Below, piece after piece: positions 24,163 through 26,179 of a stretch of DNA of 32,023 bases. The position numbers and the translations under genes were made by a program. Within the stretch, counting starts at the first letter, position 1; every line of letters begins with the position of its first letter. Origin of the DNA: a bacterium (GTDB taxonomy: Bacteria; B130-G9); the NCBI GenBank assembly GCA_035527515.1, contig DATLAJ010000128.1:1-32023 (forward strand), in the 5' to 3' direction. The notes under the pieces are model-generated. The model worked only from the letters and a program-made list of their open reading frames with translations. It had not been told where the DNA came from and ran no database searches.

Positions 24163-24237
24163 CGGGGCGTAGCGCAGCCTGGTTAGCGCGCTGCCTTCGG
24201 GAGGCAGAGGTCGGAGGTTCAAATCCTCTCGCCCCGA
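24163..24237 (+). tRNA. tRNA-Pro(CGG)
   Basis: A complete cloverleaf: acceptor CGGGGCG/CGCCCCG, D-arm GCGC...GCGC with AGCCTGGTTA, anticodon stem CTGCC/GGCAG with loop TTCGGGA (anticodon CGG), T-arm GGAGG TTCAAAT CCTCT. Discriminator A at 24237. CCA is not encoded here (ACAA follows), whereas the defective second copy at 26107 is followed by ACCA. All but its first three bases, plus one base beyond it, form a 73-bp direct repeat. Confidence 0.95.
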
Positions 24238-24325
24238 CAAACTGAATGACCGGGCGTTCGCGAGCGCTGGGTTACTCTCAAGGTTGACACAGAGTTATGC
24301 AGGTGCGACAGAGGTCAGGCAGACG

Positions 24326-26074
24326 ATGATAACGAAGGTTACCATAGAGTACTTCAAGAGATTCGCTAAACAGACATTTGACCTTGGCGATGATGTCGTC
24401 CTTGCCGGGCCAAACAACTCCGGGAAGACCACGCTTCTCCAAGCGATTTCGGTATGGGATCTTGGAGTTCAACGCTGGCTCGCTGAACGGCAAGAACCTT
24501 CCAAGGCTAAGGAGCGCACGGGAGTTCCAATAACCAGAAAAGACTTCGCTGCTATCCCGCTCAGAGAAATGAACCTCCTGTGGTACGACAGAAGGACGGC
24601 ATACCGCAAGAACGAAGACCCCGGGAAAAAGAGCGGAGATCATAAGCTGATAAGAGTGAGTATATGGGGGCGGGCCACTAAAGCAGAAGCCAATTGGCAC
24701 CTCGCGGTCTGCTTTCGCTACGCCAACAAGGAGCTGGTATATGTGTGGCTAGAAGATGAGCAGGGCAAGCACGTTGTGGATGTCCCTAAAGGGGTCAACG
24801 AGACTGACATTGTCCATGTGCCTCCCTTTTCCGGCATTGGGGCGGAAGAAACTGGGCTGAACCCGGGCTATCAGAATATGTTGGTTGGCCAAGGGAAGCC
24901 GGGAGACATCCTGCGCAACCTACTCCACGAGGTTTACGAGAAAAGCGAAGAGAGGAAGGCCGAGCCATGGCAATCACTCGTTGAGACCGTCAAAGAGGTC
25001 TTTGGCTACGTGCTTTTAGAGCCGCAGTATAACCCGCGCACAGACCCTTTCATCAAAGTTGAGTACCGACATAAGGCTTCAGGAGGTGCGAAGTTCGACA
25101 TTGCCTCCGCGGGCAGCGGCTTCCACCAGGTCCTGATGCTCCTCTCGTTTTTCTATGCAAGGCCAGCGTCCGTTCTTCTCCTCGACGAGCCCGACGCTCA
25201 CCTCCACGTGATCCTTCAGAGACAGATTTACGACCGTTTGCGCTCAGTAGCTCGAATGCGGCAATGCCAGCTCTTGGTCTCGACCCACTCGGAGGTCATC
25301 TTAGAAGATACAGGCCCGGAGCAAATCCTCTCGTTTTACGGTGCGCCTCATCGCCTGCGCGTCGAGCCCGAGAGGGATCAGGTGCGAGAGGCTCTCAAGC
25401 GACTCTCCTCGCTTGACATTCTGTCGGCAGAGAGCGGTCAGAACATTCTCTACGTTGAAGGCGAGAGCGACTTCAAGATTCTGGCGGAGTTAGCCCGCAT
25501 CCTTCACCACCCAATGAAGGCGTTTTTCGATATGCCATTTTTCTGGCCGATACACGGCAGAGACGCGCGCGAGGCAAGAGCACACTTCTTCGGGCTTAAA
25601 GCGATTCGCCCCGTAATACGAGGGGTTCTGCTCTTGGACGGCGATAACCGAAGCCTCCCAGACCACGAGATAGCAGCGGACGATCTGACGGTGCTCCGAT
25701 GGCGGCGCTATGAGATAGAGAACTACCTGCTTCACCCCGATGCTTTGTTGCGTTTCGTCGCGGGGCCGGCCCCGGACATCTTCTCAGCAGCTCGGAAGAC
25801 CGCGGGGGAGAAGTACCTGAAGGACAATCTGCCGCCCGCCGCCCTCTCACATCCATTGGGGGATATTGACTATCTCGTCGCCACACCTTCCAGCAAAGCC
25901 CTTCTCCCTGCCTTTCTTGAAGCGGCAGAGCTCGGTCTTTCGAAAAAGGACTACTATCAGATAGCCGCCGTGATGAAGAAAGCGGAGGTTCATCCTGAGG
26001 TCAAGGAGAAGCTTGACGAGATGGAGCGAGTGTTATTGCCCGTGCCCAGCGCCTCGGACGGCCCGGCAAGGTAA
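24326..26074 (+). CDS. ABC-type ATPase fused to TOPRIM/DUF4435-like domain (PARIS/OLD-like)
   Basis: 582 residues from the ATG at 24326, which gives the family-typical start MITKVTIEYFKRF; a TTG at 24284 would add 14 atypical residues. ATPase: Walker A GPNNSGKTT (28-36), signature-like SAGSGFHQ (261-268), Walker B VLLLDEPDAHLH (283-294), switch His STHSE (His321). The C-terminal TOPRIM-like domain: NILYVEGESDFKIL (Glu378), GVLLLDGDN (Asp438, Asp440), and RRYEIENYLLHP (461-471), a motif typical of DUF4435. ATPase and TOPRIM/DUF4435 make up AriA and AriB of the PARIS anti-phage system and, in another arrangement, OLD/GajA nucleases; here they are one chain. By family knowledge, likely a phage-triggered nuclease or toxin. 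The tRNA-flanked location supports defence cargo. Activity is inferred. Confidence 0.8.
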   Translation: MITKVTIEYFKRFAKQTFDLGDDVVLAGPNNSGKTTLLQAISVWDLGVQRWLAERQEPSKAKERTGVPITRKDFAAIPLREMNLLWYDRRTAYRKNEDPGKKSGDHKLIRVSIWGRATKAEANWHLAVCFRYANKELVYVWLEDEQGKHVVDVPKGVNETDIVHVPPFSGIGAEETGLNPGYQNMLVGQGKPGDILRNLLHEVYEKSEERKAEPWQSLVETVKEVFGYVLLEPQYNPRTDPFIKVEYRHKASGGAKFDIASAGSGFHQVLMLLSFFYARPASVLLLDEPDAHLHVILQRQIYDRLRSVARMRQCQLLVSTHSEVILEDTGPEQILSFYGAPHRLRVEPERDQVREALKRLSSLDILSAESGQNILYVEGESDFKILAELARILHHPMKAFFDMPFFWPIHGRDAREARAHFFGLKAIRPVIRGVLLLDGDNRSLPDHEIAADDLTVLRWRRYEIENYLLHPDALLRFVAGPAPDIFSAARKTAGEKYLKDNLPPAALSHPLGDIDYLVATPSSKALLPAFLEAAELGLSKKDYYQIAAVMKKAEVHPEVKEKLDEMERVLLPVPSASDGPAR

Positions 26075-26106
26075 GGGCCTCGCGCCCGTGAAACTGACAT
26101 CGCGAA

Positions 26107-26179
26107 GGCGTAGCGCAGCCTGGTTAGCGCGCTGCCTTCGGGAGGCAGAGGTCGGAGGTTCAAATCCTCTCGCCCCGAC
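26107..26179 (+). repeat. Second tRNA-Pro copy, defective 5' end (candidate att site)
   Basis: Identical to 24166-24238. The seven bases before TAGCGC are GAAGGCG, so the first three acceptor pairs cannot form and the copy is a pseudo-tRNA. It is followed by CA, giving an encoded ACCA end that the intact copy lacks. No promoter is seen upstream. The next 139 bases to the trkH stop hold no gene. Confidence 0.9.

Follow-up and report, generated by a model that had tools for sequence, protein, structure and literature searches.

The window analyzed is a 32,023-nucleotide stretch of the Coatesbacteria genome G000, a metagenome assembly of 3.47 Mb in 183 contigs with 49 tRNA genes. It was compared with three further Coatesbacteria genomes: G001, the only other genome of the host's genus compared; G002; and G003 (Candidatus Coatesbacteria, JAFGIT01), a family-level relative from another genus. 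One sizeable gene, encoding an ATPase, lies between two copies of a tRNA-Pro(CGG) sequence, arranged as follows.

22565 to 23362, + strand: surE, on the left flank; its synteny with tRNA-Pro is shared by G002 and G003
23398 to 24090, + strand: yqaA-like gene with a VTT domain, on the left flank; synteny is shared by G002 and G003
24163 to 24238, + strand: left, functional tRNA-Pro(CGG), acceptor stem sound, without CCA and followed by ACAAAC
24166 to 24238, + strand: left copy of the 73-bp direct repeat, 100% identical to 26107 to 26179
24239 to 24325, + strand: left-hand end of the insert with the leader of the ATPase gene; attachment motif absent (−14.6 bits); alignment to the G003 orthologue's leader possible in part
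24326 to 26074, + strand: ATPase-TOPRIM gene, 582 amino acids, AAA_21/AAA_15, OLD/PtuA/GajA-like fold
26104 to 26181, + strand: right copy of tRNA-Pro, carrying CCA but with three broken acceptor pairs
26107 to 26179, + strand: right copy of the 73-bp direct repeat, 100% identical to 24166 to 24238
26182 to 26208, + strand: 27-nt element-end motif GCCATATAGCGGCCTTCACGGCGATTT, abutting the right tRNA-Pro copy and common to about nine other tRNA genes of G000
26319 to 27767, − strand: trkH, right flank
27768 to 29132, − strand: trkA, right flank

The two repeats are spaced 1941 bp apart, and ARAGORN called a tRNA-Pro(CGG) at each, with Rfam scores of 65.6 bits for the left copy and 49.6 bits for the right. 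In the left copy CGGGGCG pairs with CGCCCCG, and ACAAAC follows immediately, leaving no encoded CCA. The right copy begins with GAAGGCG, which breaks pairs 1-72, 2-71 and 3-70, and it ends in ACCA. The description given by the sequence-only reading, of repeats identical at 73 of 73 bp with a sound left copy lacking CCA and a right copy with a broken acceptor stem and CCA, was therefore confirmed. The missing CCA was ruled out as a mark of insertion, since CCA is encoded by only 23 of the 49 tRNA genes of G000. tRNA-Pro(CGG) alone among these 49 genes was bracketed by a second copy within ∼9 kb.

The natural start of the ATPase is the ATG at 24326 rather than the TTG at 24284. No integrase or transfer gene was found inside the insert by ORF and domain analysis. 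Pfam returned the AAA_21/AAA_15 domains and no TOPRIM match for the protein. The AlphaFold model had a mean pLDDT of 91.6, and its best Foldseek matches in the PDB were OLD nuclease (6p74), PtuA and GajA; TM-scores were low (0.3 to 0.4), which we attribute to differing domain placement. Across 56 homologues, the Walker A/B residues G28, G33, K34, D287 and E288 and the TOPRIM acidic residues E378, D382 and D438 were invariant, and D440 was found in 49. The protein thus has these sequence features of an OLD-type nuclease, namely, the Walker A and Walker B residues of an ABC-type ATPase and the TOPRIM acidic residues.

Homologues of the ATPase adjoin genes for DUF1156, NOV_C helicase, N6_N4 and Eco57I methylases and a Schlafen-type protein. 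By this association, a defense role is likely, and we infer an anti-phage function. The earlier description of the cargo as one ATPase-TOPRIM gene of a defense-linked kind, lacking an integrase, stands, its kin being located among defense genes. OLD nucleases, GajA of Gabija, PtuA and AriA of PARIS likewise have an ATPase head of the ABC type joined to a C-terminal part that is TOPRIM-like. However, Gabija, Septu and PARIS have the partners GajB, PtuB and AriB, whereas the insert has no partner gene for any of these systems or for MADS. None of the curated defense-system models reached its cut-off (MADS3, 52.7 bits against 420; PtuA, 42.1 against 500). The ATPase was also considered as phage or plasmid cargo, and this was rejected; no phage or viral contig matched, and the only matches, to plasmids, had at most ∼31% identity.

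The content following tRNA-Pro differs among relatives. In G002, surE, yqaA and a single tRNA-Pro are followed by other genes with no ATPase, and trkHA are on a separate contig, where the 10 kb that was read contains no tRNA. In G003, surE, yqaA and the tRNA are on one contig; the tRNA carries CCA and is followed by an orthologous ATPase with one in-frame TAG and then by a beta-helix gene, whereas in G000 the ATPase is followed by trkH. No second tRNA copy was found in 3.4 kb of G003 sequence there. The G003 site was joined from two contigs via a 57-bp overlap, nearly all of it tRNA, and adjacency of these contigs is likely. Neither the yqaA gene nor tRNA-Pro(CGG) was detected in G001. The sequence-only reading had proposed searching relatives for an empty site with one tRNA; G002 has one tRNA-Pro and no ATPase, as expected, but G003 has the ATPase there and no second copy.

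Breakage of the G003 contigs at tRNA-Pro bears on whether the arrangement in G000 is itself an artifact, with the contig falsely joined through the tRNA repeat. The 183-contig metagenome assembly and the identity of related tRNA sequences between genera would allow for such an error. However, even a falsely joined contig would need the start of a tRNA immediately behind the ATPase; in addition, the gene order on the left recurs in G003, and the right copy has distinct flanks of its own. We consider an artifact very improbable.

The G000 and G003 ATPases share 72.6% amino acid identity, with a 4-fold-site identity of 0.37, close to that of the resident genes surE (0.34) and yqaA (0.35). Two further groups of paralogues were compared (group B, G000 and G003, 71.5% amino acid identity and 4-fold-site identity of 0.29; group C, G002 and G003, 72.3% amino acid identity). 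The leaders of the two orthologues are alignable (P = 0.0055 by shuffling). Given an orthologue after the same tRNA, a vertical-like divergence and an alignable leader, the ATPase is best read as resident since before the split of the two genera. A gene phylogeny that follows the host lineage was named by the sequence-only reading as a refuting outcome; between these two genera the divergence does follow the host, and recent mobility is not supported. Identity at 73 of 73 positions would be impossible for an unconstrained copy of that age, and the right copy must therefore be younger or have been homogenized with the functional tRNA. A perfect tRNA repeat alone thus does not imply recent or single-step insertion.

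Two further observations were made in these comparisons. A second ATPase-TOPRIM group (L110:1512-3245, L108:6374-8122 and L107:2550-4292) is vertically inherited in the family and lies directly after a CoA-disulfide-reductase-like gene in G000 and G002. Between the window and G002, trkH and trkA (26319 to 29132 against L115) had 4-fold-site identities of 0.50 and 0.41, and those of surE, yqaA, the CoA reductase and the ATPase paralogue were lower (0.30 to 0.39).

Five tyrosine recombinases of G000 (L306, L305, L304, L307 and L303) adjoin fragments of 43 to 55 nt that are 100% identical to 3′ parts of other tRNAs, namely, tRNA-Arg(CCT), Ser(TGA), Arg(TCT), Val(TAC) and Gly(GCC). The recombinase genes read towards the tRNA fragment at a distance of 38 to 66 bp; one is 1.1 kb from its fragment by the ORF chosen, the integrase frame being broken by a TAG. 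The sequence-only reading had suggested a search for recombinases linked to tRNA-Pro; the fragments beside these five derive from other tRNAs. C107 was rejected as a helper for tRNA-Pro, as its integrase ends beside a tRNA-Gly(GCC) fragment, making tRNA-Gly the target rather than the neighboring tRNA-Pro(GGG); its flanks showed no significant similarity to the cassette ends. A tRNA with the anticodon CTA, called as tRNA-Pyl, is located at L358:9049-9123 (G000:C155). Together with the in-frame TAG codons of the G003 ATPase and the C63 integrase, this tRNA prompts the question whether TAG is read through in the phylum.

In G000, about nine intact tRNAs have the 27-nt motif at their 3′ end, and it also follows two or three tRNA fragments and the right tRNA-Pro copy, but not the left; the loci with the motif include L343, L359, L362, L365, L371 and L357, besides the window. 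A motif model trained without the window scored 30.8 bits directly after the right copy and −14.6 bits after the left, against maxima of 16.8 bits in five shuffles and 15.9 bits away from tRNAs. A whole-genome pattern search gave nine matches, six of them in G000 and a single one in each of G001, G002 and G003; every match immediately follows a tRNA or the 3′ fragment of one, and the reversed control gave none. The first genes past the motif include Mrr and GmrSD restriction genes at tRNA-Val(TAC), an FRG gene at Val(CAC) and an AAA ATPase at Leu(GAG). The motif is missing from the flank of the far fragment at tRNA-Gly and was therefore taken to mark the end of an element. On this view, another element, largely lost or unrecognized, would start with the right tRNA-Pro copy; no body of a second element was recognized to the right of the motif, and trkH begins 110 bp on. 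Given the tRNA-linked recombinases and shared end motif in G000, and the motif after the right copy, the sequences support placing the repeat at a true tRNA attachment site.

The position of the motif also bears on whether the right copy could be a local duplication, a retro-copy or a gene-conversion product formed with no integration, the ATPase being a mere resident neighbor. The G003 ATPase adjoins a tRNA with no second copy, and the right copy ends exactly at CCA, as a tRNA-derived copy would. However, the motif begins exactly at the tRNA end of this copy, and no other tRNA of G000 is duplicated in such a manner, making this origin improbable in our view.

The explanation that we prefer, to which we give about an even chance, is an old, integrase-less insert at a reused tRNA attachment site, with the repeat pair as an accretion scar. 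tRNA-Pro(CGG) would be one of at least 10 tRNA attachment sites of a tyrosine-recombinase element family in G000. The ATPase-TOPRIM gene would be an old insert that predates the genus split, with no integrase of its own and eroded ends. A resident element of the tRNA-targeting family could later have recombined where the insert ends on the right, leaving a fresh CCA-bearing tRNA copy and the end motif; it would since have decayed or would continue to the right. The repeats would then be a scar of accretion rather than the paired ends of a single active cassette. A trans-acting recombinase could still excise the segment via the repeats, restoring one tRNA with CCA, and the locus would then read yqaA-tRNA-CCA-GCCATATAG-trkH. 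As to the order of events and the acting enzyme, we infer them from these features. Several points weigh against accretion. Integration of a second element best explains only the 3′ part of the right copy, whereas the identity extends to tRNA position 4 and exceeds the 43- to 55-nt fragments elsewhere in G000. In addition, a second-element body is lacking, the G003 join relies on a tRNA overlap, and the comparison spans four genomes of the phylum, with the site absent from G001.

Homologues of the ATPase were examined for similar arrangements at 78 loci of public genomes. A tRNA lay within 500 bp only at the G003 record, L164 and L206, and a general association of the family with tRNAs was ruled out. 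Only L206 and L167 were bracketed by tRNA sequences. In Verrucomicrobia, L206:9577-12173 is a one-gene ATPase insert extending from tRNA-Ser(GGA) to a 24-bp copy of its 3′ end, and the sequences beyond both tRNA ends are also similar. An empty site for it was sought in its family, and the best flank homologues (L222 and L223) lacked a tRNA. L167:7637-12958 of Conexibacter is a 5.3-kb island at tRNA-Pro(TGG) with a 44-bp repeat containing one mismatch; it carries the ATPase and a Replic_Relax protein, and no integrase domain was found among the genes tested. A G002 paralogue beside tRNA-Arg (L112) was rejected as a bracketed insert, having no second tRNA fragment. In the ATPase tree, the window and G003 proteins are sisters (support, 99) and lie beside Verrucomicrobiota and Elusimicrobiota (97), a topology that shows transfer between phyla. 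The close pairs L206/L160, L153/L155 (91% nucleotide identity over 1,730 bp) and L132/L134 have only the gene in common, with at most ∼85 bp around it; other close pairs share longer neighborhoods.

Inserts with other cargo were also seen at tRNA-Pro. In G050, from another phylum, two further one-gene inserts are bracketed by tRNA-Pro repeats: a DACND/DAC-domain gene between 46-bp repeats of 91% identity (L281:2027-4184) and a gene for 1,418 amino acids with no Pfam match between 31-bp repeats (L282:1951-7365). In G035 (L283:4171-7317), an intact tRNA-Pro(CGG) is preceded, rather than followed, by a 31-bp fragment of a tRNA-Pro 3′ end, and surE and a PCMT gene separate the two.

These homologues are pertinent to a mobile one-gene cassette, in which a circle of tRNA (positions 4 to 73) and ATPase would have integrated recently at a motif-bearing tRNA-Pro site through a recombinase in trans and could leave again. 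The exactness of the 73-bp repeats, the return of a tRNA with CCA on excision, the five resident tRNA recombinases, the tRNA-bracketed L206 homologue, the close pairs that share the gene only and the lack of the ATPase at the G002 site all fit such a cassette. However, the family motif is absent from the ends of the insert, the G003 orthologue at the same site has diverged like resident genes, and matches to phage and viral contigs are lacking and those to plasmids remote. We regard a recently mobile cassette as possible but rather unlikely. A more specific proposal, a one-gene defense satellite with a near-complete tRNA core, moved in trans by the tRNA-specific recombinases of G000, appears doubtful and quite improbable. 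Its repeat identity would be kept by selection on the restored tRNA, each excision exposing the acceptor-broken copy to selection. The original suggestion of a satellite moved in trans is supported in part, by the tRNA attachment site, the recombinases, the motif after the right copy and the existence of bracketed homologues; recent mobility is not supported, the insert carrying neither motif nor integrase and the G003 orthologue having diverged like resident genes.

Among known systems, additive islands offer a close likeness to the old insert that we prefer. In Methylophilaceae, inserts between tRNA repeats range from 330 bp to 42 kb with 1 to 63 CDSs (PMC10872708), and such cassettes are also found in Actinomarinales (PMC7771536). 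They likewise have tRNA-end repeats, hold as little as one CDS and vary in content at a site, as does the tRNA-Pro site among the relatives. One-gene inserts bracketed by tRNA repeats have thus already been reported in both studies, and integrase-free ones are described as well. Placement of the ATPase insert by site-specific recombination would fit the motif and the recombinases of G000; no excised or empty form was seen in this species. Their repeat is a tRNA 3′ end of ∼20 nt, whereas that of the ATPase insert is nearly the whole tRNA (73 nt), which is unusual; the insert, unlike those cassettes, also appears to predate the split of two genera. The insert also resembles a cis-mobilizable element (CIME; defined in PMC5704250) in having no integration or transfer genes, attachment-like flanking repeats and accretion at one tRNA site. 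It differs in that no ICE or IME parent is recognizable, no tandem partner is seen, and the family motif is at the right attachment site but not at the left. Elements with tRNA-linked recombinases occur in G000 at other tRNAs, and none that is intact and related was found at tRNA-Pro. The insert carries one ATPase gene only, without the integrase or phage-interference genes of phage satellites (PICI, P4-like and PICMI). Tycheposons, in the parts of PMC10872708 and PMC11389934 consulted, likewise carry tRNA-anchored cargo with tyrosine recombinases at several tRNAs per genome, whereas the insert lacks a recombinase and is half the smallest tycheposon size quoted there (4 kb). Thus, the kind is already known and mobility is putative; the member itself, the near-complete tRNA repeat and the common motif are new. 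They tie a solitary defense-type gene to a testable attachment system in an uncultured phylum, in which one 27-nt motif is associated with many tRNA targets, related recombinases and defense-type genes beside several of its copies.
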